This document shows, one piece after another, positions 7,209 to 38,261 of a stretch of 64,000 nucleotides of DNA (positions are counted from its first letter, which is position 1; the number at the start of each line of letters is the position of its first letter). The position numbers were made by a program, and so were the translations under genes. This DNA comes from Hyaloperonospora brassicae. Its lineage: Eukaryota > Oomycota > Peronosporomycetes > Peronosporales > Peronosporaceae. The DNA lies in contig CANTFL010001446.1 in NCBI GenBank assembly GCA_947650285.1, forward strand, positions 62,001 to 126,000, given 5' to 3'. Below the pieces are notes generated by a model. That model had not been told where the DNA came from. It ran no database searches and saw only the letters and a list, made by a program, of their open reading frames with translations.

Positions 7209-7734
7209 TGTAACGGGGTCACACGTCGGCTGGTAGCCGACGATAGGTGTGGTGCACACACGAGAGGGGGGTATCCTATAAGGTAATATTAGAACACAGT
7301 GAGCGTATCAATTGTTGAAGACTGGTGTCTGTCATCAATTGATTGCAAGATCTTTTAAGAGGTTATTTAGGGCAGGTTAAATACGTTGTTCTAAGGTGTT
7401 CTTTTAGGTTAAATGAAGAAATAAAATTCAGTTCCCATTTTGATCAACATAAGACACGTGCCTTACGAGGCGTCTTTGATCGGGAGGACAGAAGCAACGC
7501 CTGTAAAGGTAGCTTGTCCTCGAGCACTCTGTGCTGTGATTCATTTGAATCGTTTGGTCCCTCTGGAACGGGGACCGTAAGCTCTCTGAGCTGTTGACTC
7601 TCTGAGTCGGGTTTTCTGAACCACCCTTTAAGCTCTCTGAGCTGTTGACTCTCTGAGTCGGGTTCTTTGAACCGAAGTTGCTCATTGAGCGTAAAGTATT
7701 CCTCTGAATTAAGGAGCTGTGTAGCTCCGCTACA
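7209..7734 (+). repeat. 5' LTR of gypsy copy 1
   Basis: 526 bp, TG...CA ends. Near the start it carries CGTCGGCT-GGT-AGCCGACG (7224-7242), an 8-bp hairpin. The second half is an array of very short hairpins: AGCAC-TCT-GTGCT (7523), GATTC-ATTT-GAATC (7538), AGCTC-TCT-GAGCT (7580 and 7631), GACTC-TCT-GAGTC (7596 and 7647), GGTTC-TTT-GAACC (7661) and GGAGCT-GTGT-AGCTCC (7713). A 51-bp unit (7580-7630) is tandemly repeated at 7631; the 3' LTR has this unit once. Confidence 0.95.
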
Positions 7735-7736
7735 CT

Positions 7737-7744
7737 TGGTAGCA
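7737..7744 (+). promoter_or_regulatory. Probable primer binding site, gypsy copy 1
   Basis: Two bases after the LTR comes TGGTAGCA, which could pair with the 3' end of a tRNA ending TGCTACCA, as in many initiator-Met tRNAs. Pairing beyond eight bases is not evident (CTAG follows). The matching site in copy 2 is at 24822-24829. Confidence 0.45.
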
Positions 7745-7793
7745 CTAGTAGTCAATCTACACCTGAGTCGGTAACGACTGATTCTCTGCGAGG

Positions 7794-8828
7794 ATGGAGC
7801 AATCCACACCCCTCTCTGAGGCTCAAAAGGTCGCGCTTGATAAGCTGACCGCGGCCGTAGGCCTAGAGTATGTGGAGTTTCTAGCTGCACAGGGTCCCGA
7901 TGTGCTCAATGCACGAGTCGAGGCCTTTATGCAGTATGAAACGGCCCTGTTGGGCCAGGTTCAAAACCAAGTAGCGTCGGCTATGCCGACACGCTACGTG
8001 GCTATGCCACCAGAAGAGGCTAATCCTCGTCCCCTTCGGGTGGACGTTAAATGTTACTCCGGGAAGGAGGGGGAAAACTTGACCCTCTGGATCCGTGAGA
8101 TTGAGATGGCCATGGACTCTGGTCTCATCTCACTAGAGAACCAGCGGGTCTCTTTGGCTATCTCTAAGCTCGATGGTAGAGCTAGAGAGTGGGCTTTGAC
8201 GTGTGGCACGTCGGTCGATTTGGCATTTCCCACGTGGAAATCGCTCAAGTTAGACCTCATGCGAGTTTTCTCGCCGCCTAACCAGGCATATCGCGTGCGA
8301 TCACGCTTCTTATCAACCCGTCAGGGTAAGAGCGAGTTAACGGACTATGTCCAAGAGTTGAGAACTCTAATGGCTGCTATGCAGTCTGACCCTCTCCCTG
8401 AGACTGTCTACGTGACAGTCTTCATGGAAGGTCTCCGCACTGGCGTGGCCAGAACCGAGGTTTTTCGGGTTCATCCCTCTACTTTTGAGGAAGCTGTGAG
8501 CGTCGCTCAAAATGCTGAGCACAACTTCAAGTCGGCCAGACTTGGTTGGAATGGGTACAACCCAAGCTTTGCGAGGGCGGCCTCTGCGAGGACTTCGGCT
8601 TACTGTAAGCAAGAACCGATGGATCTTAGCCATGCTGAAGATGAAGGCGAAGCGGAGCTTCATGTTGCGGAGCAACGACAGGATGTGAGACGCTGTTACA
8701 TGTGCGGAAGCACTAAACACTTGCGTCCCACTTGTCCTTTGCGTAAGCAACAACCGACTCCTATGAGTCGAAACCCCAGCCTCAACCAGAAACCTGGTAT
8801 GGCACGGGGAAATGTTGACCTTCAGTAG
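7794..8828 (+). CDS. gag: Gag polyprotein, gypsy copy 1 (intact)
   Basis: Structural protein that packages retrotransposon RNA into cytoplasmic particles. The 344-residue frame starts at ATG 7794 and runs to TAG 8826. The middle shows the retrotrans_gag pattern, with REWALTCG, WKSLKLDLMRVFSPPNQAYR and ELTDYVQELRTLMAAM at about residues 120-205. Near the end lies one zinc knuckle, CYMCGSTKHLRPTC (CX2CX4HX4C form, about residue 300), for RNA binding. The start is chosen because it is conserved in copy 2 and is the first ATG after the leader. Five bases after the stop is the ATG of pol, in the -1 frame. Copy 2 has a frameshift in this gene; here it is whole. Confidence 0.92.
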   Translation: MEQSTPLSEAQKVALDKLTAAVGLEYVEFLAAQGPDVLNARVEAFMQYETALLGQVQNQVASAMPTRYVAMPPEEANPRPLRVDVKCYSGKEGENLTLWIREIEMAMDSGLISLENQRVSLAISKLDGRAREWALTCGTSVDLAFPTWKSLKLDLMRVFSPPNQAYRVRSRFLSTRQGKSELTDYVQELRTLMAAMQSDPLPETVYVTVFMEGLRTGVARTEVFRVHPSTFEEAVSVAQNAEHNFKSARLGWNGYNPSFARAASARTSAYCKQEPMDLSHAEDEGEAELHVAEQRQDVRRCYMCGSTKHLRPTCPLRKQQPTPMSRNPSLNQKPGMARGNVDLQ

Positions 8829-8833
8829 ACGCG

Positions 8834-11800
8834 ATGTACCCTACCGGGGTAGAACTGAGTTCTGTTGCTTCTCTACGAGGTAGAGTAAAACAGGGCTTAT
8901 CCCCACCGAGCTATGTGCCCACCAGCACAGAGCGTGGATACAAGCCTGGCTTGTTAGTCGCCGAGGCGACAGTAAAAGGCTTTGAGAAGCCGTGGTCGAT
9001 TTTAATCGATTCAGGAGCATCATGTAACTATGCTCGACGTCGTTCCCTTGAGGGAAGTCAGCGATACGCTGAAGCGCTCAAAGCGCACGAAGGTGATTCG
9101 ATCACCGTTCGTTTAGCGACTGGTAGTCGCGTCACGGTGCCTAAAGTTCCGTTGAACATAGGTGTGAAGTTTTTGGACTTTGACAGCATTGAACGTTGTC
9201 TCGTCCTCGATTTGGATTCGAGATATGATCTCATCCTGGGTATGGCTTGGCTTGAACGCCATGAGCCATGGATTGATTGGAGGACTAAGACCTTAGGCGC
9301 CACGCGCAATGTTCCTAGCGAAGCTTTGGAGAGTCATGAACCATCCTTTGCTAGGCAACAAAAGCGCTATTGGCGCGAGCCATTGACGGAAGATGTCAAT
9401 GTGCAGGACATTGGTATGTCAGAGTTATTTAACTCGAATGTCGATGACATAAATATTGAGCGGAGCTCTTCTAATGCGTTTGGAGAGAGTTATACTCCGT
9501 TGAGTGATACTCGTTGTGATACTGAGTCACTGCATGCGTCAAGCATGGTTGGCCTAGGGCCGAAACATCAAGAATGTAATTCCTCTGATGTAAGTGCGGT
9601 GGCACGTGAAAATACACAGAGTGAGGACGGCCGAGGTGGCACCTCACTGAATGTCGGTAATGACATTGATGGCGAGAAGCCAGAGTGTTCAGGGCTAGGC
9701 CCTGATGCTATTAGTGCGGTGGCACGTGAAATTACACAGAGTGAGGGCGGCCGAGGTGGCACCTCACTGAATGTCGGTAATGACATTGTTGGCGAGAAGC
9801 CAGAGTGTTTAGGGCTAGGCCCGAATAATGTACGTGAAGTGGTACGTGTAAATCCACTGGGTGAAGTGTTCGAGTTACGTAACACTTCACCAGATGTCGC
9901 TCAAGACATGAGCTCTCGTATAGAGCGTGCTAAGATGAATAGCAACCATGGGGACTTTGCTGTCCCGGCCTCTAAGAGGCGTAAGGTTTCTTTGAGGAAA
10001 CAATCGAAGCGTAGGGTGGTGACTGTTAAGCGCCCAACGTTTAAGAAGTCACGAAGTGATAATAGTAATAATACGCTGTATACACTTGTCAATGGATTGA
10101 CTGGCCAGATCGATGGCAATATTAATCTTGAGACTCTTCCATCCGTGGATAAAATTTTTCGGCTAGACGAGATGTCTGACGGCGAATTTAGCCAAGCCTT
10201 GCAGGCAGGAGAATTCTCCGAGTTAGTGGTCATTCGGCCTGATATTGAGTTGAACTCATCCTCGTTATTGGACGAGTCTGTCCTTGAGGACACAAAGGCG
10301 GCATTGGATGCCCGTAGTGGATCGTAGATCCTTAAGGATCCTCTTGATCCGTTTTATCCTTTGCTAAAGTAATTTCAAGACGTGGTGTGTCACGACCCAC
10401 CGTCTGTATTACCTCCTGATAGAGGTGTGCGTCATGAAATTGACTTGGTTCCTGGAACTAAATACTGCGTAACACGGCAGTGGCCTTTGCCCAAGGAACA
10501 GTGTGACGTCATAGACGACTTCTTTCGTGCAAAGCACGCGGCGGGGATGGTTCGTGAGAGCAAATCTCCCCATTCCACACCGACCTTCTGTGTCAAAAAG
10601 CCCAACGGGAAGTGGCGCATTGTTCATGCTTACAATAAGCTTAATGTGGCCACCATCCCGGCTCAGACACCAATTCCGAGGAAGGATGTTATTCAGAACA
10701 ATATGGTGGGATGTACAATGTACAGTGTGCTCGACTTAGTCGATGGTTATTACCAGCTTCTCATGCGAGAAAGCGATATTCCGCTGACAGCGGTCAGCAC
10801 TCCAAGCGGTATGCTCTGGGAGTGGCTCGTTATGCCGCAAGGGCTATCAAATGCCCCGGATACATTCAACCGTCTTGTGACACAATTGTTTAGACCTCAC
10901 AGAGGTTATGCACAGACGTACTTTGATGACATCTTTGTCCATAGTCGTGCTATGAACGGTCGGTCAGATGTGGATAATCACATTGACCATTTACGAGCGG
11001 TGCTCGAGTGGATGCGCACGAATAAGTTGTACGCCAACGCGTCTAAGTGCATTTTTGGTGCAGAAGAGATTCCCTTTTTAGGGTGCTTTATTGGTAAGCA
11101 AGGCCTTAGAGCGGATCCCGCCAAGGTAAAAGCCATAGTTGATTGGCAGGTTCCAAAGAACCAAAAGGACTTACGTAAGTGGCTTGGCCTCGCCAATTAC
11201 TTACACAAGTACAGTGCGAATTACGCAGACATGGCTCGGCCATTAACCAATCTCCTTAAAAAGGATGTAGAATGGTGCTGGACTAGCACTGAGCATGATG
11301 CTTTTCAAGCAGTCAAGGAGAGTCTCCTACATGCGCCCATATTGGCTTTGCCTGATCCTGAGCGATCTTTCAGTGTCGTCTGTGACGCATCTGACTTTGC
11401 CATAGGCAGAGCTCTGTTGCAAACAGATGATGATGGGCGGGAACGCGTTATTGCGTTTGAGTCCCGACAGCTAAAAGCTGCGGAGAAGAACTATCCTGTT
11501 CATGACAAAGAGCTACTTGCAATGAAGTATGCTCTCGTCAAATTCAGAGTTCATCTTCTTGGCTCTAAGCCGTTTGTGATCTATACAGATCATGCGTCAC
11601 TACGCACTGCGACCCAGTCGCCTCACCTCTCTCAGAGAATGGCTCGTTGGCTTTACTTCTTTGCCGAGTACAACTTCGAGGTGAAGTATAAGCCGGGCAA
11701 GCAAAATGCTTTGGCGGATGCGTTGTCACGCAGGCCTGACTATGAGCTTGCTCATGTTACGACTCTGTCGTCACCGGTCACTGACCTAATCCGCACGGCA

Positions 11801-13567
11801 TATGTCAAGGATGAACATTGTGTAGCCCTGCTACGTGCTCTAGGGAGCGAGGAGTTTAAAGACTCGTACATAAAATTGTCGGCACGGTTACGTGCGAGGT
11901 TACATCGATATTCCATCGATCAAGGCCTGTTGTGCTATAGCACGGATGTGGAGGATACCCCTCGCATCGTTGTCCCTCATGATGAGGAGTTGAAGCATCG
12001 GATCCTCTATGAGGCACATGATACTGCGTTGAGTGGTCATCTCGGTCGTGAAAAGACCTACGGCTCTGTGAGCCAATTCTATTGGTGGCCCAAACTATAC
12101 AAATGGGTGAGCACCTATGTACGTACGTGTGAAACGTGTCAACGGGTGAAACCCTCACCACATGCGGCAGCGCCGCTGGCTAGTTTGCCTATACCCAAAG
12201 GGTGTTGGGAGTCCATCAGTATGGACTTCCTGTTCGGTTTACCGACGGATTCGTATGGAAATACGGGTATTGTGGTCTTTGTTGACCGTTTGAGCAAGAT
12301 GGCTCATTTAGCGGCGGTGCCAGACACCATTGATGGTGAAGGTACAGCGACGCTGTTTATCGATCGCGTGTTTCGACAACACGGTCTGCCGTTAGCAATT
12401 GTCTCTGATATAGATCCTCGCTTCACTGGGAAGTTTTGGAATTCAATCTTCAAGGTGCTCGGCACACGTTTGGACATGTCCACAGCGGATCATCCGCAGA
12501 GCGATGGTCAAACCGAGCGCGTTAATCGCATCATCGGTGACATCTTGCGCAGTGTTTGCGCTGAAACACCTAAGCGTTGGAGCTCGATGCTCCCTGTCGT
12601 TGAGTTTGCGTTGAATAACGCTGTGCATGCCTCCACCGGCTTTACCCCGTTCTACGTGAACGGTCTCACACACCCTCGCGTTCCGTTAACGCTACCACTA
12701 CGTGGTTCAGGGCTTGGTGGGGGAGGAGTTGCCGATCGGCTTGCTGATATCAGCCCTGCTACTGTTCAAAAACAGGTAAGCGAGTTTCTCGCAACGCGAT
12801 TGAATGTCTTACGACATGTGCGTGACGCACTGGCTGATAGCCAAGATAAGCAGAAGGAACAAGCAGATGCCAAAGGCAGAGGTTGTATTGAACGTTATAA
12901 GGTCGGAGACCAAGTTCTACTCAATGCTAAAAACCTACCTACAAATGTAGTATCCGCCGTCTTCAAGACGAAGTTGCGCCCGCGCTTCATTGGACCCTTT
13001 ACGGTCGTCGCCAAGAAGGGACTTGCGTATACGCTCAACCTTCCGCGCAAACTGCGCACAAACCCCGTGTTCTACGTTGGCATGCTTAAGCCGTATCGGG
13101 ATCCGTCCCACGTGAACTTGGAGGCGCTTGCGCCGGGTAGGTTGGCTTTGCCATCGGTTGCTGAATCCGTATCAGGAGGTCAAGCTGAGCCTCCATCCGG
13201 GCTTTACCCAACTCCAACGCCCGAACACGGGCTCGCATTGCGTCGAACGCACTCTGGGTCTGACCCAACGTCTCACGGAGACCACTCAGCTCGAGAAGCA
13301 CCTTCTCGTGCTCCTCCTTCGGTATACCGACCACCTCCGACGCTGCTCGATGAGCAAGGGAACCGCCAGTTCCATGTGGAACGACTCCTGAAACGACGTC
13401 GTCGTCAGGGTCAATACCAGTATCTGGTAAAGTGGCGAGGGTACCCGGAGTCGGAGAACTCGTGGGAATTTGAGTTACCCCTTCGGCAGGATTGCCCGTA
13501 CGCCGTTGATGTTTTTGAACATCGTGGCAGGGGTCATCCTTCGACCGATATCGCTTCCCACCAATAG
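8834..13567 (+). pseudogene. pol: Pol polyprotein, gypsy copy 1 (two in-frame stops)
   Basis: The frame from ATG 8834 encodes a protease with [11 protein letters not shown], then a long variable linker. TAG at 10325 and TAA at 10370 interrupt it, after which the same frame stays open from 10382 to 13567: RT with TYFDDIFVH, RNase H with [11 protein letters not shown] and YTDHASL, integrase with HDTALSGHL...CETC, MDF, SDIDPRF and QTERVNR, a GPF module ([11 protein letters not shown]) and a chromodomain ([20 protein letters not shown]). Copy 2 has GGATC-TTC-GATCC where the first stop lies (here GTA), and GAG where the second lies. The whole frame is 1578 codons against 1538 in copy 2; the 40-codon excess is the duplication at 9591-9830, so no other net length change exists. 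Catalytic residues remain, but no full-length product is possible without readthrough. Confidence 0.93.
9591..9830 (+). repeat. 120-bp in-frame tandem duplication in the pol linker
   Basis: Two copies of a 120-bp unit beginning AGTGCGGTGGCACGTGAA, at 9591 and 9711, encode a 40-residue repeat containing [12 protein letters not shown] and GEKPEC. Copy 2 has one unit. The site is the poorly conserved stretch between protease and RT, where length change is probably tolerated. Confidence 0.9.
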
Positions 13568-14390
13568 TGGTGGAAGCAGGTGGGTCGTTTGGTTCCGCTT
13601 GACCAACTCCCACTTCCATCGGCACAGCCGGAGCATAGCGGGTGCGAAATCGCAATTGGCCTCTGGCCTTAAGCTTGGCATAGTCATACCGAAGCTTTCG
13701 TTCGAGACGAACATCTGCCACATTGGCACTTGCTCTGAGAGATAGCATGCTGCTGAGGTGACGTTTCCGGTGCACCCCCCAGCGCACAAAAGTGTTGTCC
13801 TCCTCCTCCGGAGATTCGCCTGCGAATAAGAGGATGGGTATACCCCTCATCGGTGGCACCGGTGCACCCCGTGCTTGCGTGTCAAGTCGCAACTTGTATT
13901 GACTTAGAGTCGTCAAGTGGGGTTGCAGGTACCTCTCACGAAGTGCCTGTCGGCTCGCCACTTCATCAGAAGATGTAGGCTCAGCGCCAATGGCCCACGT
14001 TGCCAGGGAACGACCTGTCGTTTGGCGTATACGCTCTTCCACATTTAGTGGCGTGAACTGATAGCCACGACGACCCTCAAGGTCTGCAGCAAACTGCATA
14101 CGGCGCTGAGCGCTCTCCTCTTGTTGGATTACCAACTCTTGTTGCTCATCGAGCGGGTTGGTGATGATGTGTTCACCTGCATCTGTTGCATGATGCTGCG
14201 TTTCTAACGCGGTGGTCTCACTACGCTCGGCAAATGGGTTTGGTGCAGTATGAGGCGATGCCTCTTGCACTGGTGAGTTGGACATTGTCCGTTCTTCACC
14301 ACGGACATCAGTATCACTACCATAGTCCTCCTCCACATTAATGCCGAGGTAAGAAGAGAGAGTCGGGGACTCGTAAGGTGGCGATGCCAT
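13086..14390 (-). CDS. Antisense accessory ORF, gypsy copy 1 (434 aa, unknown family)
   Basis: A minus-strand ORF begins at ATG 14390 in the context ACACCATGG, close to the Kozak optimum, and stops at 13086. The ATG is preferred over one 15 codons upstream because identity with copy 2 begins here. I recognise no family. Visible parts: an acidic, variable N-terminus (about 1-100); a conserved core (about 105-250) with [20 protein letters not shown] and basic stretches such as VHRKRHLSS and [17 protein letters not shown]; a Pro/Asp-rich stretch; and a C-terminal coiled coil ([20 protein letters not shown] onward). The last 160 codons overlap pol antisense, covering its linker and chromodomain. 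Copy 2 has the same ORF with one whole-codon length difference. Extra antisense ORFs between pol and the 3' LTR are known in some plant gypsy elements; relation to those is untested. Confidence 0.72.
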   Translation of the reverse strand: MASPPYESPTLSSYLGINVEEDYGSDTDVRGEERTMSNSPVQEASPHTAPNPFAERSETTALETQHHATDAGEHIITNPLDEQQELVIQQEESAQRRMQFAADLEGRRGYQFTPLNVEERIRQTTGRSLATWAIGAEPTSSDEVASRQALRERYLQPHLTTLSQYKLRLDTQARGAPVPPMRGIPILLFAGESPEEEDNTFVRWGVHRKRHLSSMLSLRASANVADVRLERKLRYDYAKLKARGQLRFRTRYAPAVPMEVGVGQAEPNDPPASTTIGGKRYRSKDDPCHDVQKHQRRTGNPAEGVTQIPTSSPTPGTLATLPDTGIDPDDDVVSGVVPHGTGGSLAHRAASEVVGIPKEEHEKVLLELSGLRETLGQTQSAFDAMRARVRALELGKARMEAQLDLLIRIQQPMAKPTYPAQAPPSSRGTDPDTA

Positions 14391-14458
14391 GGTGTTTCGT
14401 GCTTTAAAAATCGTGAGGTTAGAGCGCACACACACCGTCCTCTTCGAGGAAAAGTTCG

Positions 14459-14480
14459 ATTGACGTTTTGTGGTAACGTC
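14459..14480. promoter_or_regulatory. Short inverted repeat between the antisense ORF and the polypurine tract
   Basis: GACGTT-TTGTGGT-AACGTC is a perfect 6-bp stem with a 7-base loop, unchanged in copy 2 (about 31424-31443). It lies in the leader of any antisense transcript and just before the polypurine tract. Its role is unknown. Confidence 0.5.
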
Positions 14481-14485
14481 AGTCT

Positions 14486-14497
14486 GGTGGGGGAGGG
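14486..14497 (+). promoter_or_regulatory. Polypurine tract, gypsy copy 1
   Basis: GGTGGGGGAGGG ends at the base before the 3' LTR, the normal place for priming plus-strand DNA. Identical in copy 2 (31449-31460). Confidence 0.85.
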
Positions 14498-14971
14498 TGT
14501 AACGGGGTTACACGTCGGCTGGTAGCCGACGATAGGTGTGGTGCACACACGAGAGGGGGGTATCCTATAAGGTAATATTAGAACACAGTGAGCGTATCAA
14601 TTGTTGAAGACTGGTGTCTGTCATCAATTGATTGCAAGATCTTTTAAGAGGTTATTTAGGGCAGGTTAAATACGTTGTTCTAAGGTGTTCTTTTAGGTTA
14701 AATGAAGAAATAAAATTCAGTTCCCATTTTGATCAACATAAGACACGTGCCTTACGAGGCGTCTTTGATCGGGAGGACAGAAGCAACGCCTGTAAAGGTA
14801 GCTTGTCCTCGAGCACTCTGTGCTGTGATTCATTTGAATCGTTTGGTCCCTCTGGAACGGGGACCGTAAGCTCTCTGAGCTGTTGACTCTCTGAGTCGGG
14901 TTCTTTGAACCGAAGTTGCTCATGAGCGTAAAGTCTTCTTCTGACAAAAGGAGCTGTGTAGCTCCGCTACA
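14498..14971 (+). repeat. 3' LTR of gypsy copy 1
   Basis: 474 bp, TGTAACGGGG...GCTACA. It matches the 5' LTR apart from one missing 51-bp unit, a one-base deletion in the GCTCAT(T)GAGC hairpin and a few substitutions, mostly near the end. It is followed by the target duplication ACGTA at 14972-14976. Confidence 0.95.
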
Positions 14972-14976
14972 ACGTA

Positions 14977-16860
14977 TCCAGTGACTGAGGCTGAGTAGAA
15001 CAATACATTGCATAAAGGCACGACGCCAATTCAGCTAAAGGTTTGAGAGCAAGAATGACAAGTCGCAGCGTACATTGGGTCGACTAAAGAGAGAAGAGTA
15101 AGCTCAATCTGGACGATTTGTGGAGAGAGATCGACACTGGTCGAGACACTCGCCAGTTTGGTTTGTGTCACGACCGGGCAGTTGTGGTGTGTAGAATTGC
15201 CAAACGATTTGCTCGATACTCTTGACTTGATTATAGTAGGGGTGACCCCGACGAAAGGTACCGGAGCGCGTCGACGAGTGAAGGCTCGACGAACAAAGAC
15301 TCGACGAGTGAAGAATCGACGAGTGAAGAATCGACGAGTGAAGAATCGACGAGCAAAAACTTGACGGGAGAAAACTTGACGAGTAAAAAATTGACGAGTG
15401 AAGACTTGACGAGTAAAGACTCGAAGAGAGAAGACTCAATGAGGGAAGACTCTACGAGTGAAGACATGACGTGAGAAGATATGAGAGTGAGATAAGGAAT
15501 GATCTAAAATACTAGGCATTAGTATAGGTTGATAAGGGGGACGAAGGGGAGCCAATTTAGAGTCCTTTCGCGGTCAGGAAGAGGAAAAGAGATAATCAAT
15601 ACAGTGCAGAATTTTCTAAGTCCAAGACACGCGTGCACCTACGGTCCCTGCGTGGGCTACATTATGCCTGCCGTCGAACCTCGAGAGGAATAGCTTGTAG
15701 AGGTATCGACTGGTAGAGCCAATAGTGTAGGAAGGCCCGGGTTGGGCAGCACTCGCCACTAGCGAAAGAAGGAGTCTCGTTGTCGAAGAGCCGGTAAACC
15801 TTGTGATGGGACCGTTGTTAGACTTGTCAAGTAACAAGCCAGTGACCCAATAGACGGCACCGTTGAACATCTTGTCGAACGACAAGCCGATGGGCCTCAG
15901 CCGAGGGTACCGAAAATCTTCTAGTCGGGCATACACTGCGCTCGATGACCTGTCAAAACGCGTAAGCGTCGGCTTCCATCCTTTGGTGTGAAGTCACAAG
16001 AAGAGGTTTGGAGGCTGCTGAGCTCAGGCAGGACTCTGGAGGAAGTGGTTGTAAGGAATCGGTTAGGCGAGAGCCACAACTAAACCCGAAGGGACGAACC
16101 ACTTAACCTTTTCCCAAACGTACCAGCCCGTGTCGCCGACTTAACTCGGCGATTGTTGTGTTTGTACGTTGATACTGTTTTATAACAGAATTAACTAACT
16201 ACTATACCACATTAGTCTATATTAGACGACTAAATGTTGGCGAAACAAATTGCCAACTAACTGTTTGGCATGAAGATAGCGCGTCATTCTATTGCTATCT
16301 AATTTACAATACGAAAGTTTTTGCAAGTCTTGGGTGAACGAATGCAGAGTTCTTGTCGGACAATGGGGTGACAAGCAATATTCAAGTGGTGTTAGTACAA
16401 ATTTTTACATACCGGTGAGCTAAATGTGAAAGAAAGCGAAGTATTGTATCGATTTTGACCGCAGAGGATCAGTTTACAGGAGACTGAGTTATAAATTGAG
16501 TAGCTTTCAGCCATTTTTGACATGTTACGAGGGTTAAATTGGATTGATATTAAAAAGTGATGCCGCTCTGAGTAGTTTACATATAGTGTCTGTGTATCTG
16601 CTTCACATTCAGATTGCATTAGCTGAGGTCATTCATATTGAGATTTTATGAGCCAACAGTTTATTCAAGTAAAGGATCGGGCCAGATTATGGCCGACGAC
16701 CAGTTTGGTCGATTATCGGCAGTGGCCAATAAAATGACAGAGCTGACAACTCTGAGCGATCTAATTGGATTGTTTTACGAATAAGTCAGTTTATGGCCGT
16801 CCACACGCGTCAAACGCAGGCTAATCACATACTGCGACGACGCACAATTAAGTAGAGAAA
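14977..16860. other. Right flank of gypsy copy 1, no gene recognised
   Basis: Apart from the minisatellite at 15264-15480 nothing here matches a family I know. A 106-codon minus frame (15616-15936) is unsupported. The stretch may be the rest of the old gypsy element, whose left side ends at 7208, because the CTCGACGAG motif typical of that element recurs here. Small inverted repeats stand at about 16211 (GTCTA-TAT-TAGAC) and 16706 (CGACCA-GTT-TGGTCG). Confidence 0.4.
15264..15480. repeat. 15-bp minisatellite, unit about GACTCGACGAGTGAA
   Basis: About 14 head-to-tail units of 15 bp; three central ones (AATCGACGAGTGAAG) are identical and the outer ones diverge, as expected for an array decaying from its edges. 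Because 15 is divisible by three, it creates repetitive frames on both strands (KNRRV on plus, SSILH on minus); these are by-products rather than genes. Confidence 0.9.
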
Positions 16861-24285: not shown

Positions 24286-24819
24286 TGTAACGGGGTTACA
24301 CGTCGACTGGTAGTCGACAATAGGTGTGGTGCACACAAGGGATGGGATCCCCTTTAAAGTAATATTAGAACACAAGTATCAATTGTTGAAGACTGATGTC
24401 TGTCAACCATTGATTACGAGATCTTTTAAGAGGTTTATTTAGGACATAAGTGAGTAGGTTATTTACTTTGTTCTAAGGTGTTCTTTTAGGTTAAAAGAAG
24501 AAATAAAATTCAGTTCCCATTTTGATCAACAAAAGACACGTGCCTCTCTGAGGCGTCTTGCGATCGTAAGGAGCTAGCAACGCCTTGTTAAGGCAGCTAC
24601 TCCTTGTGCACTCTGTGCGTTTGATTCTCTTGAATCGTTTGGTCCCCCTGGAACAGGGACCGTAAGCTCTCTGAGCTTGTTGACTCTTTGAGTCGGGTTC
24701 TTTGAACCAAACCTTAGCTCTCGGAGCTGTTGACTCTTTGAGTCGGGTTCGTAGAACCAAAGTTGCTCATAGAGCGTTAAGTCTTCCTCTGACTTAAGGA
24801 GCTGTGTAGCTCCGCTACA
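24286..24819 (+). repeat. 5' LTR of gypsy copy 2
   Basis: 534 bp. The start hairpin reads GTCGACT-GGT-AGTCGAC (24302-24318), a compensated variant of the copy 1 hairpin. The 51-bp hairpin-rich unit is present twice, with loop changes (AGCTC-TCG-GAGCT, GACTC-TTT-GAGTC, GGTTC-GTA-GAACC). Confidence 0.95.
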
Positions 24820-25917: not shown

Positions 25918-28900
25918 GGGCGCCCTACTGGGGTAGAACTGAGTTCTGTTGCTTCTCTACGAGGTAGAGTGAAACAGGGCTTAGCCCCACCGAGCTATGT
26001 GCCCGCCAGCACAGAGCGTGGATACAAGCCTGGCTTGTTAGTCGCCGAGGCGAAGATTAAAGGCTTTGAGAAGCATTGGTCGATCCTAATCGACTCCGGA
26101 GCATCATGCAATTATGCTCGACGTCGTTCCCTTGAGGGAAGTCAGCGATACGCTGAAGCGCTCAAAGCGCATGAGGGTGATTCAATCACCGTTCGTTTAG
26201 CGACTGGTAGTCGCGTCACGGTGCCTAAAGTTCCGTTGAACTTAGGTGTGAAGTTTTTGGACTTTGACAGCATTGAACGCTGTCTTGTCCTCGATTTGGA
26301 TTCGAGATATGATCTCATCCTGGGTATGGCTTGGCTTGAACGCCATGAGCCATGGATTGATTGGAGGTCTAAGACCTTAGGCGCCACGCGCAATGTTCCT
26401 AGCGAAGCTTTGGAGAGTCATGAACCCACCTTTGCTAGGCAACAAAAGCGCTATTGGCGCGAGCCATTGACGGAAGATGTCAATGTGCTGGACATTGGTA
26501 TGTCAGAGTTAATTAACTCCAATGTCAATGACATCAATATTGAGCGGAGCTCTTTCACCGTATGTGAAGGGAGTTATACTCCGTTGAGTGATACTCGTTG
26601 TGATACTGAGTCACTGCATGCTGCAGGCATGGTTGGCCTAGGGCCGAGACATCAAGAATGTAATTCCTCTGATGTGAGTGGGGTGGCACGTGAAATTCCA
26701 CCGAGTGAGGGCGGCCGAGGTGGCACCTCACTGAATGTCGGTAATGACATTGATGGCGAGAAGCCAGAGTGTTCAGGGCTAGGCCCGGATGCTGTACGTG
26801 AAGTGGTACGTGTAAATCCACTGGGTGAAGTGTTCGAGTTACGTAACACTTCACCAGATGTCGTTCAAGACATGAGCTCTCGTATAGAGCGTGCTAAGAT
26901 GAATAGCAACCACGGGGACCCTACTGTCCCGGCCTCTAGGAGGCGTAAGGTTTCTTTGAGGAAACAATCTCAGCGTAGGGTGGCAACTGTTAAGCGCCCA
27001 ACGTCTAAGAAGTCACGAAGTGATAATAGTAATAATACACTATATACACTTGTCAATGGGTTGACTGGCCAGATTGATGGCAATATTAGTCTTGAGACTC
27101 TTCCATCCTTGGATACTCTCTTTGAACTAGACGAAATGTCTGACGGCGAATTTAGCCAAGCCTTACAGGCAGGAGAATTATCCGAGTTAGTGGTCATTCG
27201 GCCGGATATTGAGTTGAACTCATCCTCGTTATTGGACGAGTCTGTCCTTGAGGACACAAAGGCGGCATTGGATGCCCGTAGTGGATCTTCGATCCTTAAG
27301 GATCCTCTTGATCCGTTCTATCCTTTGGTAAAGGAGTTTCAGGACGTGGTGTGTCACAACCCACCGTCCGTCTTGCCTCCCGATAGAGGTGTACGTCATG
27401 AAATTGACTTGGTTCCTGGAACTAAATACTGCGTAACACGGCAGTGGCCTTTACCGAAGGAACAGTGTGACGTCATTGACGACTTCTTTCGTGCAAAGCA
27501 CGCGGCAGGAATGGTACGTGAGAGCAAATCTCCCCATTCCACACCGACCTTCTGTGTCAAAAAGCCCAATGGGAAGTGGCGCATTGTTCATGCTTACAAT
27601 AAGCTTAATGCGGCCACCATCCCGGCTCAGACACCAATTCCGAGGAAGGATGTTCTTCAGAACAATATGGTGGGATGTACAATGTACAGTGCGCTCGACT
27701 TAGTCGATGGTTATTACCAGCTGCTCATGCGAGAAAGCGATATTCCGCTGACAGCGGTCAGCACTCCAAGCGGTATGCTCTGGGAGTGGCTTGTTATGCC
27801 GCAAGGGTTATCAAATGCCCCGGCTACATTCAATCGTCTTGTGACACAATTGTTCAGACCTCACAGAGGTTATGCACAGACGTACTTTGATGACATCTTT
27901 GTCCATAGTCGTGCTATGAACGGTCGGTCAGATGTGGACAATCACATTGACCATTTACGAGCGGTGCTCGAGTGCATGCGCACGAATAAGTTGTACGCCA
28001 ACGCGTCTAAGTGCATCTTTGGTGCAGAAGAGATTCCCTTTTTAGGGTGCTTTATTGGTAAGCGAGGCCTTAGAGCGGATCCCGCTAAGGTAAAAGCCAT
28101 AGTTGATTGGCCGGTTCCAAAGAACCAAAAGGACTTACGTAAGTGGCTTGGCCTTGCCAATTACTTGCACAAGTACAGTGCGAATTACGCAGACATGGCT
28201 CGGCCATTATCCAATCTCCTTAAAAAGGATGTGGAATGGTGCTGGACTAGCACCGAGCATGATGCTTTTCAAGCAGTAAAGGAGAGTCTCCTTCATGCGC
28301 CAATCTTGGCTTTGCCTGATCCTGATCGATCTTTCAGTGTCGTCTGTGACGCATCTGACTTTGCCATAGGCAGCGCTCTGTTACAGACAGATTATGATGG
28401 ACGGGAACGCGTCATTGCGTTTGAGTCCCGGCAGCTGAAGGCTGCAGAAAAGAACTATCCTGTTCATGACAAAGAGCTACTTGCAATGAAGTATGCTCTC
28501 GTCAAATTCAGAGTTCATCTTCTTGGCTCTAAGCCGTTTGTGATCTATACAGATCATGCGTCACTACGCACTGCGACCCAGTCGCCTCACCTCTCTCAGA
28601 GAATGGCTCGTTGGCTTTCCTTCTTTGCCGAGTACAACTTCGAGGTGAAGTATAAGCCGGGCAAGCAGAATGCTTTGGCTGATGCGTTGTCACGCAGGCC
28701 TGACTATGAGCTTGCTCATGTTACGACTCTGTCGTCGTCGGTCACTGACCTAATCCGTACGGCATATGCCAAGGATGAACACTGTGTAGCTCTGCTACGT
28801 GCTCTAGGGAGCGAGGAGTTTAAGGACTCGGACATAGAATTGTCGGCACGATTACGTGCGAGGTTACATCGATATTCTATCGATCAAGGCCTGTTGTGCT

Positions 28901-30531
28901 ATAGCACGGATGTGGAGGATACCCCTCGCATCGTTGTCCCTCATGATGAGGAGTTGAAGTATCGGATCCTCTATGAGGCACATGATACTGCGTTGAGTGG
29001 TCATCTCGGTCGTGAGAAGACCTATGGCTCAGTTAGCCAATGCTATTGGTGGCCCAAACTATACAAATGGGTGAGCACATATGTGCGTACGTGTGAAACG
29101 TGTCAACGGGTGAAACCCTCACCTCACGCGGCCGCGCCGCTGGCTAGTTTGCCTATACCCAAAGGGTGTTGGGAGTCCATCAGTATGGACTTCCTGTTCG
29201 GTTTACCGAAGGATTCGTATGGAAATACGGGTATTGTGGTCTTTGTTGACCGTTTGAGCAAGATGGCTCATTTAGCAGCGGTGCCAGATACCATTGATGG
29301 TGAAGGTACAGCTACGCTGTTTATCGATCGAGTGTTTCGACAACACGGTTTGCCGTTGGCAATTGTCTCTGATAGAGATCCTCGCTTCACTGGGAAGTTT
29401 TGGAAGTCCATCTTCAAGGTGCTCGGCACACGTTTGGACATGTCCACAGCGGATCATCCGCAGACTGATGGTCAAACCGAGCGAGTGAATCGCATCATCG
29501 GTGACATCTTGCGCAGTGTTTGCGCTGAAACGCCTAAGCGTTGGAGTTCGATGCTCCCTGTCGTTGAGTTTGCGTTGAATAACGCCGTGCATGCCTCCAC
29601 CGGCTACACACCGTTTTATGTGAATGGTCTCACACACCCTCGCGTTCCGTTAACGCTACCACTGCGTGGTTCAGGGCTTGGTGGGGGAGGAGTTGCCGAT
29701 CGGCTTGCTGATATCAGCCCTGCTACTGTTCAAAAACAGGTAAGCGAGTTTCTCGCAACGCGATTGAATGTCTTACGACATGTGCGTGACGCACTGGCTG
29801 ATAGCCAAGACAAGCAGAAGGAACAAGCTGATGCTAAAGGCAGAGGTTGTATTGAACGTTATGAGGTCGGAGACCAAGTTCTACTCAATGCTAAAAACCT
29901 ACCTACAAATGTAGTGTCTGCTGTCTTCAAGACAAAGTTGCGCCCGCGCTTCATTGGACCATTCACGGTCGTCGCCAAGAAGGGACTTGCGTATACGCTC
30001 AACCTTCCGCGCAAACTGCGCACACACCCCGTGTTCTACGTTGGTTTGCTTAAGCCGTATCGGGATCCGTCCCACGTGAACTTGGAGGCGCTTGCGCCGG
30101 GTAGGTTGGCCTTGCCATCGGTTGCTGAATCCGTATCAGGAGGTCAAGCTGAGCCTCCATCCGGGCTTGGCCCAACTCCAACGCCTGGACACGGGCTCGC
30201 ATCGCGTCAAACGCACTCTGGGTCTTACCCAATGTCTCACGGAGACCACTCATCTCGAGAAGCATCTTCTCATGCTCCTCCTTCGGTATACCGACCACCT
30301 CCGACGCTGCTCGATGAGCAAGGGAACCGCCAGTTCCATGTGGAGCGACTCCTGAAACGACGTCGTCGTCAGGGTCAATACCAGTATCTGGTGAAGTGGC
30401 GAGGGTACCCGGAGTCGGAGAACTCGTGGGAGTTTGAGACACCCCTTCGGCAGGATTGCCCATACGCCGTTGATGTTTTTGAACATCGTGGCAAGGGTCA
30501 TCCCTCGACCGAGAGCGCTTCTCACCAATAG
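25918..30531 (+). CDS. pol: Pol polyprotein, gypsy copy 2 (open throughout)
   Basis: A 1537-residue frame numbered from GGG 25918, the codon aligned with the pol ATG of copy 1; copy 2 has no ATG there, and the first GTG is at 25969, so the true start is unclear. Domains: protease with DSG (about D59); RT with [14 protein letters not shown] and YFDD at about 656-659; RNase H with [22 protein letters not shown] and YTDHAS; integrase with H1022 and a CETC zinc motif, and catalytic D1091 (MDF), D1152 (SDRD) and E1188 (QTE), giving D,D-35-E; GPF module; chromodomain ([20 protein letters not shown]), which binds modified histones in chromoviruses. All key residues are present. The frame lies -1 to gag, so frameshifting or reinitiation would be needed. 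The last 482 bp overlap the antisense ORF. Confidence 0.93.
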
Positions 30532-31351
30532 TGGTGGAGGCAGGTGGGTAGTTGGGTACCGCTTGACCAACACCCACATCAGTCGGCACAGCCGGAGCAT
30601 AGCGTGTGCGAGTTCGCAACTGGCCTCTGGCCTTAAGCTTGGCGTAATCATACCGAAGCTTTCGTTCTAGACGAACATCTGCCACATCGGCACTTGCTCT
30701 GAGAGCTAACACGCTGCTGAGGTGTCGTTTCCGATGCACCCAGCGAACAAAAGCGTTGTCTTCTTCCTCCTGAGATTCGCCTGCGAATAAGAGGATGGGT
30801 ATACCCTTCATCGGTGGAACCGGTGCACCCCGTGCTTGCGTGTCAAGTCGCAACTTGTATTGACTTTGAGTCGTCAAGTGAGGTTGCAGGTACCTCTCGC
30901 AAAGTACCTGTCGACTCGCCACCTCATCAGAAGATGTTGGCTCAGCGCCAATGGCCCACGTTGCCAAAGAACGACCTGTCGTTTGGCGTATACGCTCTTC
31001 CACATTGAGTGGTGTGAACAGATAGCCACGACGACCCTCAAGGGTTGCAGCAAGCTGCATACGGCGCTGAGCGCTCTCCTCTCGTTGGATAGCCAACTGT
31101 TGTTGCTCATCGAGCGGATTAGTGATGATGGCATCGCCCACGATGGGTGTTTGATGCGGCGCCGATGGCGCGTTGGCTTCGCCACGCTCGGCAAATGGGT
31201 TTGGTGCAGTATGAGGCGGTGCCTCTTGCACTGGTGCGTCGGACATTGTCCTCTCTTCACCATGGATATCGGTATCGCTACCATAATCCACATCCACATC
31301 GATGCCGAGGTAAGACGAGAGAGTCGAGGACTCATGGGGTGGCGATGCCAT
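30050..31351 (-). CDS. Antisense accessory ORF, gypsy copy 2 (433 aa, unknown family)
   Basis: Counterpart of the antisense ORF of copy 1. It starts at ATG 31351 in the same ACACCATGG context and ends at the same place in pol. Order: variable acidic N-terminus ([16 protein letters not shown]), conserved core ([20 protein letters not shown] and [11 protein letters not shown]), basic stretch ([16 protein letters not shown]), a Pro/Asp-rich linker ([14 protein letters not shown]) and a coiled coil (RALELG region here [20 protein letters not shown]). It lacks one glycine found in copy 1, caused by three fewer C in a C-run. The product is probably cytoplasmic or nuclear, since no signal peptide or membrane segment is visible. 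Function unknown; a particle, silencing or regulatory role is speculation. Confidence 0.72.
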
Positions 31352-31448
31352 GGTGTTTTGTGTTTTGCCAACCGTGAAGGTTGAAGCGCACACACACCGT
31401 CCTCTTCGAGGAAAGAATTCGATTGACGTTTTGTGGTAACGTCAGTCT

Positions 31449-31460
31449 GGTGGGGGAGGG
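31449..31460 (+). promoter_or_regulatory. Polypurine tract, gypsy copy 2
   Basis: GGTGGGGGAGGG directly before the 3' LTR, identical to copy 1. Confidence 0.85.
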
Positions 31461-31992
31461 TGTAACGGGGTTACACGTCGACTGGTAGTCGACAATAGGT
31501 GTGGTGCACACAAGGGATGGGATCCCCTTTAAAGTAATATTAGAACACAAGTATCAATTGTTGAAGACTGATGTCTGTCAACCATTGATTACGAGATCTT
31601 TTAATAGGTTTATTTAGGACATAAGTGAGTAGGTTATTTACTTTGTTCTACGGTGTTCTTTTAGGTTAAAAGAAGAAATAAAATTCAGTTCCCATTTTGA
31701 TCAACATAAGACACGTGCCTCTCTGAGGCGTCTTGGATCGGAAGAGCTAGCAACGCCTTGTTAAGGTAGCTGCTCCTTGTGCACTCTGTGCGTGTGATTC
31801 TCTTGAATCGTTTGGTCCCCCTGGAACAGGGACCGTAAGCTCTCTGAGCTTGTTGACTCTCTGAGTCGGGTTCTTAGAACCAAACGTTAGCTCGTCAGAG
31901 CTGTTGACTCTTTGAGTCGGGTTCGTTGAACCAAAGTTGCTCATTGAGCGTTAAGTCTTCCTCTGACTTAAGGAGCTGTGTAGCTCCGCTAC
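31461..31992 (+). repeat. 3' LTR of gypsy copy 2
   Basis: 532 bp, very like the 5' LTR of this copy, with both 51-bp units. It ends GCTAC and lacks the terminal A, and the expected CACGA duplication does not follow. Confidence 0.93.
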
Positions 31993-32622: not shown

Positions 32623-32990
32623 TGTTAGACGTAGGTGCACTTGTGCAGTAGAAGTAGGAAGTAAACGTAAAATATGTCGTGTGTTGACTGCCCTTCGTTG
32701 TTAACTCCATTGTATGCAGTTGATGACCACCACTGCAGCTTGACCTGGTCAAGTTGCACCTGGCATACGTCCAGCGTGTCCATCGCCGTGTGCCATCCCT
32801 GGTCCCATATGACGTCCGTATGTCAATGTCTCTCCCGCTGTCTTCAGGTGTCAGTATGACATGGCGATCGTCTTCCTCCGTCGCATATGTTAACTTGTCA
32901 GCCAATCAGGTGAGGTTGCCCAAAACCTGTAATAGTTCTTGCAGTAACAATCACGCTAACGTGACCTGTCAGAAACAATTTCTCCTAACA
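32623..32990 (-). repeat. 3' LTR of the copia element
   Basis: 368 bp. On the minus strand it starts TGTTAGGAGAAATTG and ends GTCTAACA. It shares nearly all positions with the LTR at 37889, but the last eight bases differ (GTCTAACA against CTCGGACA). Confidence 0.92.
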
Positions 32991-32996
32991 GTATTC

Positions 32997-35900
32997 CTGG
33001 ACGTCAGAGTGAGTCGCTTTAAGTTAAACATCTTGCGCAGCTCCTCCAGTCTCGGCGCTGGTAACGACTTCGGCAGGATATTCGCCAACATGTTATCGGA
33101 CTTGACGTATTGAGGCACCACAGTTCCTTCACGCGCGTAGTGACAGGTGAACTTGAATCCGATGTCTACGTGTTTCGCGCTTGTCCTGCTCTTCTCTGCT
33201 TCGAGTTGATTAATAGCTGCTTGATTGTCCATCCACATGGGCATAGGATCACACGCTTGCAGCTTCAGCTCCAGCAATAACTCTCTTATATCCAGCAGCT
33301 CGCGTCCTGCTTGAGAGGCGGATATGAAGTCCGCTTCCATCGTGCTCAGCGATACACCTGACTGCTTCTTGCACGACCACATAACAACATAACCGTCCAT
33401 TGTTAGCCCACACCCAGACATCGACTTACGGTCCGCCTTGTCGGCAGCAAATTCTACGTCACTCCAGCACTCGATCTTGACATCCTGTTCGGTCGATCAG
33501 CTGCCGTTTAGGTGCAGCTTCAAACTCTTCGTCGTCTTCAAGTATCTCGTGATACGCTTCGCAGTCTTTCAATCCGTAATGGTCGGCTTTTGCGATTGAT
33601 CAGTTGCCTTGTGCACTGCAAAGTGATATCGGGCCCCATGCACCTTGCGATCCATAGCAAACTCCCAACCAAAGATTGAGAGGCGCTCGAACTCAATTCT
33701 CCACTTAAACCTCTCACGGGTAGGTAGTATTCATTGTCGTTGTCATCCTCATTTCATTCGTCTCCAATTTCTATTCGCCCACCGCTCGCGGACTCTAACT
33801 TAAAATCCCTGAGCAGCGTGTCAATCATGACCTCTTGAACCATAGCATATTCTTGAGTATCGTCCAAAGAAATTCTGAGTCCCAGAAACTTCCGGACGAT
33901 ACCAAGATCCTTGATGGACAGTGTCTTCATCCCCACAAAAAAACGCATCAATCGCGCACTGCGTGGTTCCCGTGACCAGAAGACCATCCACGTACACTCC
34001 GACGATGGTCCATTTCTTTCCCTCGTGCTTGTAGTAGAGGCACATGTCCGTTGTGCACTGTTTGTAACCAATCTCGGAGTGCGAAAAATTTCTCCAGAGG
34101 CGTCTTGCATGCCTCAATCCGTATAGCGATTTCTTCAACATCAAAGTAACTACACCAGGAGACTGCGCATCGAAACCTTGAAGTTCCTACTTGGTAATTT
34201 GCATGCCTCTTGTTCATTTCATGAATATGTACAGGTTCTTCTCCTGTTTTGCCTTTAAGTAGGCGTTCGGAACATCCCCATGACGTGCGGGAACGTTCCA
34301 TCGCCTGGAGAGCACCAAAATGAACTTGACGGTCACCAAATCCATGACGGCCGCAAACGTGATATTGTGGTCAATGCCGAAGACTTGTTCGTTCGCGCAA
34401 ACCACTAGTCGAGCTTTGTATCACTCGATGTCTCCGTTCGCTTCGGTCTTCGTCTTGTAGCCCCACATGTTGTGCAAGATATGTGCATTGTTTTGGCGGC
34501 ACAACGATCTCCCAGACGTCTTTGCTTTGAGTGCGTCCAGTTCTTCGGTCATGGCCACGAGCCATTGGTCGCGATGCTTACTGTTCATCGCCTTTCCGTA
34601 GTGGTTTGGATCTTGCTCGGTGACTGCATTCACGATGTCGCAACTGTCCACCAGAGAATCGGCTTCGCCCACTTTTCCTCAAGTTAACATTGTCGACCTT
34701 GTGTCATGGTGCTTTCTGGTCCATGTCGTACCTTTTCGAACCTTCTTTGCGCGCCTCACACCATCTCGACGATCTTCTTTATCCTCTTGATGATCCCGTC
34801 TTGGCTCTCCCTGACGTCGTACCGTGGAAGGATAAGTCTTTCTTCCATCTTGGTCATCCTGCGGTGCTTCAACGCTTTGAACGTGTTGTGTCATCACGAC
34901 CACCTTATCCACTGGGGTGTACGCTTTGTATTCCTTCGTTATGCTGCCTCGCCCAATGATGATGCCCGCCTTCCCTCGCTCACCGATTACTTTGCTCTTC
35001 GGGTATCTGTGCACATAACGTGTCGACCCAACAACCACGATGTCTGGCAGCACGGGAGCCCTGTTCGTCAGGATATTCATGGGCGATGCACCTCCAGGGT
35101 TGGACTTGGTATTGCTTCGTTTCCGTATGTACGAAGCGTACTCTGATGCTACGCACCATGTTCATGATGGTGCGGTGCATCTTATCAGCCTTGCCGTTGC
35201 TCGCTTAATTTCTCGCCTCACCTACTTGACGTGAGATGCCTTCCGATGAGCAGAAAATGTCGAGCGTCTGTTAATCGCCACCTCCATCGGTGCGTAAGAC
35301 GTGAGTCTTGCATATAAACTCGCACTCGAAGCTTGACATGAAGAGCTTGAAATTCAACGCGGCTGCATCTTTTGAATCGGCCAAGAACACCCGACAGTAT
35401 TTTACGGTGGTCAATGAAATTGACCAAGTACTGATTTCCCAAACGATCTCGGGGATCATGGGACCCTTGGGGTCCGGACAAATGACATTATCGACCACGT
35501 CGATTGGCAAATTCATGCCCATGTCTCTCTTTGACTGAACCTCCTTAGTCTGCTCCCCCTTGGTACAGGCCAGACACTTTTGACGCGACGAATCGGTCAA
35601 TGGTATACCAGATGGCGGGTTTTTTGCCATCTTGACGATCGTGTCAAAACGAAGATGTCCTAGACGCCGACGAAAGTCCATCAAGGTACCACAATGAACG
35701 TCCGTGACGGATTTATGTTCAGGTAAATTGATGACAGTCATCATTGTCTCTCGTGGTGGCTTGGGATTACGATCCGTGCGATTTGTCACAGCGACAATCA
35801 AAACGTTGGTGCAACATTCCGCATCCATGATGGACGTTCCTACTATACCAGATGGTAACACGCGCCTCCCTCCTCGATATTCGAGTACACAACCTTTGGC

Positions 35901-36340
35901 CTCAAGCAATCCATAGGAAGGATGTTACGGTCGAGGTTCTCCGCGTATTGTACATAGAGGGGTCTTACTGTGTTTACGAATTCAAGTGCAGCAACTTGGA
36001 TGTCCACATTACCTTGCAGGTTTATCCGCTGTACACTGTCATCTGTGGCTGCCGTCATGCACTTACTGCGACAATCTGTCGGGTCGGTGAGTAGACTCGG
36101 ATAATTGACCAAATGTCTGCTCGAACCGATGTCGAGTATTAATTGAACAGGCAAACGATTCGAACCATGGACAACCGCAACAACAAAGTTCGCACCCGAG
36201 GTTTTCTTCTTCGATGTCGGGCACTGCGACCGAATGTGTTCCACTTCTTTACATCTGAAGCAAACCCGGGAATCGGTGCGTGGTGGCGATGATCTTGGTT
36301 TGGACTTGTCCTTAAATTCCTTCCCAGACTCGACAGCGTT
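32997..36340 (-). pseudogene. Copia pol remnants: zinc knuckle, protease, integrase, RT, RNase H
   Basis: Reading from right to left: CFRCKEVEHIRSQC knuckle and protease LILDIGSSRHLV, where the family has LDSGAS, so the catalytic DSG is DIG (35843-36343); pre-integrase RRRLGHLRFDTI and CLACTKGEQ, then integrase core PDPKGPM and LRTDGGGD (35271-35909); integrase tail (34679-35180); RT with ITFAAVMDLVTVKFIL, DVPNAYLKAK, LKKSLYGLRHARRLW and VYVDGLLVTG, where YVDD has become YVDG (33754-34405); RNase H with MSGCGLTMDGYVVMWSCKKQ, LSTMEADFIS and WMDNQAAI (32969-33421). Frames shift repeatedly, and two catalytic motifs are mutated. Confidence 0.88.
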
Positions 36341-37800: not shown

Positions 37801-37888
37801 GTCGCTGGCCTTGTCTTGACTGTCGACCACCACGACGGGTGAAGTTCTTTTAGCTGCACCATCGTCACGTTTAGTTTGGCTTATAACC

Positions 37889-38256: not shown

Positions 38257-38261
38257 TGTAT

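Follow-up and report, generated by a model that had tools for sequence, protein, structure and literature searches.

The stretch of DNA examined here (the window) comprises 64,000 nucleotides of the downy mildew Hyaloperonospora brassicae (contig CANTFL010001446.1 of assembly GCA_947650285.1, positions 62,001 to 126,000 of the forward strand; G000:C854:62001-126000) and lies inside a 100.56 Mb assembly that was searched for copies. It contains two copies of a chromodomain-bearing Ty3/Gypsy long terminal repeat (LTR) retrotransposon. In each copy, an open reading frame (ORF) on the minus strand, here called the antisense ORF (aORF), occupies the region between pol and the 3' LTR, its last part lying opposite the end of pol. 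An earlier reading of the window's letters, the original prediction, had proposed that this ORF is a conserved antisense protein gene, and the proposal is supported by the analysis below. The aORF and its parts are located as follows (A and D are subfamilies introduced below).

13086..14390, minus strand: aORF of copy 1, 434 amino acids (aa)
30050..31351, minus strand: aORF of copy 2, 433 aa
13086..13567, both strands: two-strand coding stretch of copy 1, with the pol C-terminus and chromodomain on the plus strand and aORF codons 275-434 on the minus strand
30050..30531, both strands: two-strand coding stretch of copy 2, pol C-terminus and aORF
13569..14303, minus strand: aORF-only part of copy 1, codons 30-274, far more diverged than pol or LTR when A and D are compared
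30533..31264, minus strand: aORF-only part of copy 2
14391..14485, minus strand: leader of copy 1 from the aORF start to the polypurine tract, 95 bases, candidate promoter or 5' untranslated region

The host element is made up of the following parts.

7209 to 14971, plus strand: whole element, copy 1
24286 to about 31992, plus strand: whole element, copy 2
7209..7734, plus strand: 5' LTR, copy 1
14498..14971, plus strand: 3' LTR, copy 1
24286..24819, plus strand: 5' LTR, copy 2
31461..31992 (end approximate), plus strand: 3' LTR, copy 2
14486..14497, plus strand: polypurine tract, copy 1
31449..31460, plus strand: polypurine tract, copy 2
7794..8828, plus strand: gag ORF of copy 1, Retrotrans_gag, 344 aa
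25190..25912, plus strand: gag ORF of copy 2, 240 aa, shorter than in copy 1
8834..10327, plus strand: pol of copy 1, protease-bearing part of the broken frame
10382..13567, plus strand: pol of copy 1, part with reverse transcriptase (RT), RNase H, integrase, SH3 and chromodomain
25969..30531, plus strand: pol of copy 2, 1520 aa, C-terminal chromodomain

A domain search revealed gag, protease, RT, RNase H, integrase, SH3-type and C-terminal chromodomain sequences in the element. The order of these domains, with RT and RNase H before the integrase and the chromodomain after it, together with the LTRs and the polypurine tract, identifies it as a chromodomain-bearing Ty3/Gypsy element. The LTRs of both copies start with TGTAAC and adjoin the polypurine tract, and ACGTA is present as a direct repeat on both sides of copy 1. 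The sense genes are damaged, pol of copy 1 being split into two ORFs and gag of copy 2 being shortened, and the aORF is open in both copies despite this damage. In copy 1, about 120 bases are duplicated in tandem (9585-9822) a short distance upstream of the break in the pol frame, and a tandem repeat of about 60 bases (15271-15471) lies immediately to the right of that copy.

In copy 1, 930 bases separate the pol stop codon from the 3' LTR, the aORF ATG lies 107 bases from this LTR, and about 820 bases of the aORF fall outside pol. The aORF proteins of the two copies are 86% identical. The particulars given in the original prediction were found again: the minus strand holds an open frame of 434 codons in copy 1 and of 433 in copy 2; the difference of one codon is due to three extra bases in a plus-strand C-run at codon 205 of copy 1; both starts share the context ACACCATGG; and positions 13947-14057 (37 codons) hold exactly seven nucleotide differences between the copies, all silent in the minus frame.

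Copies in the genome and their decay

When the genome was searched with the copy 1 protein as query, 1586 first-look candidates came up, of which at least 97 places received a score. With two H. brassicae proteins of subfamily D as queries, 150 and 120 candidates were scored, giving at least 203 and at least 258 matches, respectively, a number of which are pieces of one copy. Subfamilies were named A (copy 1), B (copy 2), C and D in the present analysis. The copies compared were the best 51 of the 97 scored places (L001-L050, L001 being copy 1, and copy 2 in the window), plus the lower-scoring L059 and L060; L051-L060 were picked from candidates showing no stop, so that the open frame in all eight D copies reflects this choice and is not a rate. 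The set of 61 copies consists of 60 loci, one of which is copy 1 itself, and the two window copies. Pairwise comparisons of substitution rates were made without L001 and the partial copies L044 and L046 (59 rows), and the test of fixed differences against singletons also without L039 (41 A copies). Chosen subsets were used for promoter motifs (17 copies), regional identity (12 copies), substitution rates by segment (11 pairs) and trees (20 copies).

The position of the aORF is fixed. Indeed, a pol frame lies downstream on the opposite strand in all 61 copies examined, and an LTR/polypurine junction was recognized by pattern within 200 bases upstream of the aORF in 57 of them. The start context is found in both window copies and in 57 of the 61 copies (L001 uncounted, as it is copy 1), the exceptions being L008, L020, L048 and L053. 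Among the 44 copies of subfamily A, the aORF is free of stops in 27 and the examined 3' part of pol in 24, with 0.0010 and 0.0014 stops per codon, respectively. Frequent stops in otherwise intact elements had been named in the original prediction as a sign against a gene, and on this point the outcome is mixed: in 11 of the 44 A copies the aORF has a stop and the 3' part of pol is open, and in 14 the reverse holds. We read this pattern as ordinary post-insertion decay, which taken alone speaks neither for nor against function. On single contigs (G000 C843, C821, C876, C384 and C894), several alike copies are paired in inverted orientation at distances of about 4-14 kb, representing inverted duplications or fold-back assembly artefacts.

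Selection on the antisense protein

Over codons 30-274, the ratio of nonsynonymous to synonymous divergence (dN/dS) of the aORF was 0.22-0.28 in seven pairs of A, B or C copies versus D copies, with bootstrap limits within 0.13-0.39. This ratio, taken outside the pol overlap and over several copies, had been proposed as a test in the original prediction, and between diverged subfamilies it agrees with a real gene. Shallower pairs gave higher ratios with upper limits below 1, namely 0.40 for A-B (limits 0.25-0.62), 0.53 for W1-L059 (0.35-0.80) and 0.35 for L051-L057 (0.22-0.58). Post-insertion mutations served as an internal neutral control. The singletons of the 41 A copies comprised 96 replacement, 13 stop and 47 silent changes (109:47), which is near random expectation. 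Fixed differences between A and D amounted to 85 replacement versus 90 silent changes, hence fewer amino-acid changes than among the singletons (Fisher, p = 9.2e-5), and were distributed as 47, 45 and 115 over minus-strand codon positions 1, 2 and 3. In addition, neutral simulation at the A-D divergence produced a mean of 6.9 stops and left the frame stop-free in one of 1000 runs. Similarly, the aORF was the sole stop-free frame of the six in three pairs (codons 30-274), the other five containing 3 to 13 stops per sequence. The coding status of the aORF is considered shown, with very little doubt left. The protein sequence has been preserved by evolution, suggesting that the element makes use of the product.

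Several comparisons fit less well with this reading and have to be set against it. Within subfamilies, five pairs (codons 1-274) gave dN/dS values of 0.98, 0.83, 1.48, 0.70 and 0.33, and two B-C pairs gave 1.03 and 0.51, so that the signal of selection depends on the diverged pairs. Taken singly, the fixed counts for A-B and for A-C fall short of significance (Fisher, p = 0.13 and 0.10), although they lean the same way as those for A-D. One sense frame also had a low dN/dS, 0.29-0.39, although it contains 8 to 12 stops per sequence; because of these stops, we attribute its low ratio to a mirroring of the antisense codons. Finally, the aORF contains a stop in 17 of the 44 A copies.

Coding on both strands

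The last 160 aORF codons lie opposite the C-terminus of pol, including the chromodomain, so that this overlap codes on both strands. The share of changes expected to be silent in both frames is 0.000; since no single-base change is silent on both strands, the overlap lends itself to a clear-cut natural test of coding on both strands. Fixed A-D differences in the overlap comprised 20 changes silent in the aORF only, 11 silent in pol only and 14 changing both proteins, versus 18, 26 and 38, respectively, among singletons. The shift between the aORF-only and pol-only silent classes gave a Fisher p of 0.061. Replacement to silent changes in the aORF frame were 25:20 among fixed differences versus 64:18 among singletons (Fisher, p = 0.014). 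In the linker before the chromodomain, aORF-only versus pol-only silent changes numbered 11:4 when fixed and 9:10 as singletons, which hints at a stronger constraint on the antisense protein than on pol there. In the chromodomain stretch, counts were low in every class of change. The plain dN/dS ratios of the overlap, 0.51-0.64 in the aORF frame (A/B/C versus D pairs) and 0.65-1.01 in the pol frame, compared with 0.10-0.25 for pol outside the overlap, defy the usual interpretation, as two frames share one stretch.

Mosaic history of the antisense-only segment

Different regions of the element tell different histories. In four pairs of A or B versus D copies, identity was 85-96% in the LTR and leader and 82-98% in pol past the overlap, versus 53-78% in the antisense-only part (from base 90 on). 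Synonymous divergence (dS) of the antisense-only part was 1.1-1.5, versus 0.30-0.38 in the adjacent pol-only part, with disjoint bootstrap limits (seven A/B/C versus D pairs), and the non-coding distance was 0.084-0.152 (four A/B-D pairs). Midpoint-rooted FastTree trees of three regions (20 copies; 19 for pol) disagree. Indeed, D is not a clade in the LTR tree, where A falls inside it, and stands apart on a branch of 0.46 in the aORF tree. Copy L060 is a recombinant, in which an aORF and LTR of B/C type are joined to a D-type pol, and it switches sides between trees. The simplest reading of this mosaic is an exchange of segments between element lineages by recombination. Such a mosaic segment renders the role of Gypsy antisense ORFs testable through a comparison of lineages inside one genome.

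Relatives in other species

A protein search retrieved 86 homologues of the aORF product, and a profile search gave 135, with a listing of 120; identities were 42-96%. Every named homologue among the matches listed belongs to Hyaloperonospora or Peronospora; none from beyond these genera was found among the 120 of 135 matches, many of which are without an organism name. Homologues from the two named genera align over their full length. An alignment of 18 homologues contains 20 invariant columns, 15 of which are situated at residues 210-252, outside the pol overlap. Such proteins are filed as uncharacterised proteins of Hyaloperonospora and Peronospora, which matters for annotation. Two scans of viral contigs revealed no relative. 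One database protein, P0004, filed under Peronospora destructor on a contig of 6124 bases, is identical to copy L043 over the compared codons 101-274, representing either a recent horizontal transfer or assembly contamination.

The overlap with pol could be followed in these relatives by asking whether one DNA can encode a pol and an aORF protein jointly, using the proteins alone and only the frame relation that the window copies show. A shared DNA is compatible with the pol protein P0125 and the aORF protein P0007 at 154 of 155 junctions, and with P0126 and P0036, likewise pol and aORF, at 158 of 158. To within three codons, both fits lie at the same distance from the end of pol, and shuffled proteins did not exceed 49 junctions. 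The partners of each pair, which come from separate database rows, are thus inferred to share one element. Three Phytophthora pol proteins were likewise paired with known aORF proteins (P0128 with P0064, 81 of 167 junctions; P0128 with P0006, 69 of 124; P0130, 70 of 151; P0134, 72 of 151). These values exceed the shuffled maxima (44-56), but the best windows cover the conserved chromodomain, so that they are not counted as evidence for an antisense gene in Phytophthora, whose pol proteins lack a fit like that of the two pairs above.

Protein features and proposed role

The predicted features of the copy 1 protein are the following.

13500..13556, minus strand: bipartite motif resembling a nuclear localization signal (NLS), codons 279-297; a pattern match, at the same place in 9 of 13 homologues
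13167..13331, minus strand: probable coiled coil, codons 354-408 approximately

The N-terminus is acidic, residues 1-100 having a net charge of -10 to -16 in 13 homologues. In 9 of 11 homologues, no more than 36 of 1000 shuffles reached the heptad contrast seen in the C-terminal stretch, and weak profile matches to PDB entries were mostly to solved coiled coils (best E 0.028). No Pfam family was found in the copy 1 protein, and the few weak matches of the 18 homologues were scattered, none being shared by more than two members. Next to the polypurine tract, the leader of each copy contains inverted TGACGT half-sites, at 14461-14481 and 31424-31444, with identical letters in both copies.

The frame, its fixed place, purifying selection, coding on both strands with the pol end and the mosaic history are supported by these observations. 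That the aORF is a real accessory protein gene on the antisense strand of a downy-mildew chromodomain Ty3/Gypsy family and also encodes a nuclear regulator is somewhat favoured as a whole, and a nuclear coiled-coil regulator is our best guess, with belief and doubt about evenly matched. To judge from the anatomy of the element, the gene would be transcribed leftward without depending on gag and pol, its promoter lying in the leader of 95 bases, in the 3' LTR or in both. The protein may then enter the nucleus and pair via its C-terminal coiled coil, and the conserved core (codons 205-252 approximately) may act on element or host DNA or on chromatin factors. The outcome would be a tuning of the element's own transcription or copy number, comparable with the action of retroviral antisense proteins on their LTR. 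This analogy draws, by inference only, on those retroviral proteins (PMC10186651) and on plant antisense ORFs, whose proposed role is likewise related to DNA (PMC11963269).

The proposed expression and nuclear role also have evidence to contend with. The NLS pattern appeared in 7-39% of shuffled sequences, varying by protein, and the heptad test was failed by 2 of 11 homologues (106 and 215 of 1000 shuffles). Pfam searches with the copy 1 protein and 18 homologues revealed no known DNA-binding domain. In the 17 copies inspected for promoter motifs, the initiator YCAYTYY was absent from the 125 bases upstream of the aORF start, and only the four A copies had an FPR-like match close to the start, at -64. 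Motifs of the YCAYTYY and FPR types are reported to be missing from many oomycete promoters (PMC3599244).

Alternative explanations

The aORF might be unused, open by accident and aided by lying antisense to the conserved pol C-terminus, its RNA at most feeding silencing. Constraint on pol would partly hold the overlap open, sense and antisense small RNAs have been reported for Gypsy elements of Phytophthora infestans (PMC3522703), and there are the stops in A copies mentioned above. However, about 820 bases beyond pol evolve at the low between-subfamily dN/dS without stops in the compared sequences, the pre-chromodomain linker shows its excess of fixed changes silent in the aORF only, and homologues of two named genera remain alignable over their full length. 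The contrast between fixed differences and singletons, the between-subfamily dN/dS and the comparison of stops in six frames largely refute this explanation, which is highly improbable. A product used as a structural or packaging accessory, Env-like or assisting Gag, instead of a nuclear regulator, is unlikely, yet deserves some weight. Env-like genes of other elements occupy the same position between pol and the 3' LTR, and the charged conserved core could be a module for self-assembly or RNA binding. Nevertheless, an antisense gene would be unreadable from the genomic RNA, and a membrane-type stretch, as looked for in an Env-like protein, was absent in 12 of 13 homologues (maximum hydropathy over 19 residues, 0.47-0.99), only P0036 reaching 1.61.

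As to the mosaic, the antisense-only segment may never have been exchanged and may simply evolve faster than pol and LTR. These are constrained, pol possibly also at its synonymous sites, and a mild excess of dS exists between A and B (0.217 in the antisense-only part versus 0.148 in pol). Yet, dS values in shallower pairs are similar with overlapping limits (besides A-B, 0.243 versus 0.196 for W1-L059 and 0.196 versus 0.182 for L051-L057), the trees are discordant and L060 changes sides, leaving this explanation rather improbable. Exchange by recombination, the simplest reading, may carry a meaning for the element. The product could act against other lineages or host defence, in self/non-self recognition or as a silencing suppressor, which would explain the exchange of the segment and would accord with the dS contrast and the recombinant L060. 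However, plain recombination can exchange segments without any function, and the between-subfamily ratios below 1 give no sign of diversifying selection, so that we regard such an activity as quite doubtful. It is similarly improbable that the exchangeable antisense cassette provides each lineage with its own trans-acting control (of copy number, targeting or immunity to relatives), swapped by recombination as a specificity module.

Comparison with known systems

Antisense genes at this place are already known from plant elements. The Retand lineage of plant Ty3/Gypsy elements (Grande, RIRE2, Retand) is described as having conserved antisense ORFs that encode Transposase_28 proteins, for which a DNA-related role has been proposed (PMC11963269). 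The comparison with plant elements made in the original prediction holds for the position between pol and the 3' LTR, and conservation over species is likewise shared, but it does not hold for the protein family, as a relation to Transposase_28 (PF04195) was rejected with no match in any of the 18 homologues at E up to 10 (search filters drop most matches above about 0.1). Furthermore, the plant elements are non-chromoviruses with 2,933-6,566 bases from pol to LTR, whereas the present element bears a chromodomain, has 930 bases there, and its aORF overlaps pol by about 160 codons. The deltaretroviral genes HBZ and APH-2 resemble the aORF, as a comparison of working only, in being minus-strand genes on the 3' LTR side; HBZ has an N-terminal activation domain and a C-terminal basic leucine zipper (bZIP) and lowers expression from the 5' LTR (PMC10186651). 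In contrast to these, no bZIP match was found in the copy 1 protein and 18 homologues, and no sequence relation was shown.

Chronos is likewise an oomycete Ty3/Gypsy element with a C-terminal chromodomain (PMC5348765), although it has an additional RNase H of archaeal/plant type, whereas only two RT_RNaseH families were found here (E up to 1); the word "antisense" does not occur in the main text of that paper. Among mobile elements of stramenopiles, Sola1-1 of the brown alga Ectocarpus also carries an accessory gene that runs opposite to its main gene. Unlike the present element, however, Sola1-1 is a DNA transposon, and its protein of 1104 aa carries DNA-binding and DNA-methyltransferase domains (PMC12477816), no such domain being found here. 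What is new is an antisense protein without a known family, its oomycete chromodomain host element, the long overlap with pol and the mosaic cassette. Literature searches, in which most subscription journals were outside coverage, found no description of an antisense gene of an oomycete LTR retrotransposon, as the original prediction had also held. As far as these searches show, no antisense protein gene would have been described in such an element before the aORF. Judging from the cases found described, antisense accessory genes of LTR elements would then not be confined to plant elements and retroviruses.

Other features of the window

A direct repeat of 368 bases (97.8% identity) surrounds minus-strand ORFs at 32628-38261 and probably belongs to a separate LTR element beside copy 2. 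Two inverted-repeat pairs, at 44315-47323 (371 bases, 97%) and 38866-41181 (176 bases, 90%), may be DNA-transposon ends or inverted solo repeats.

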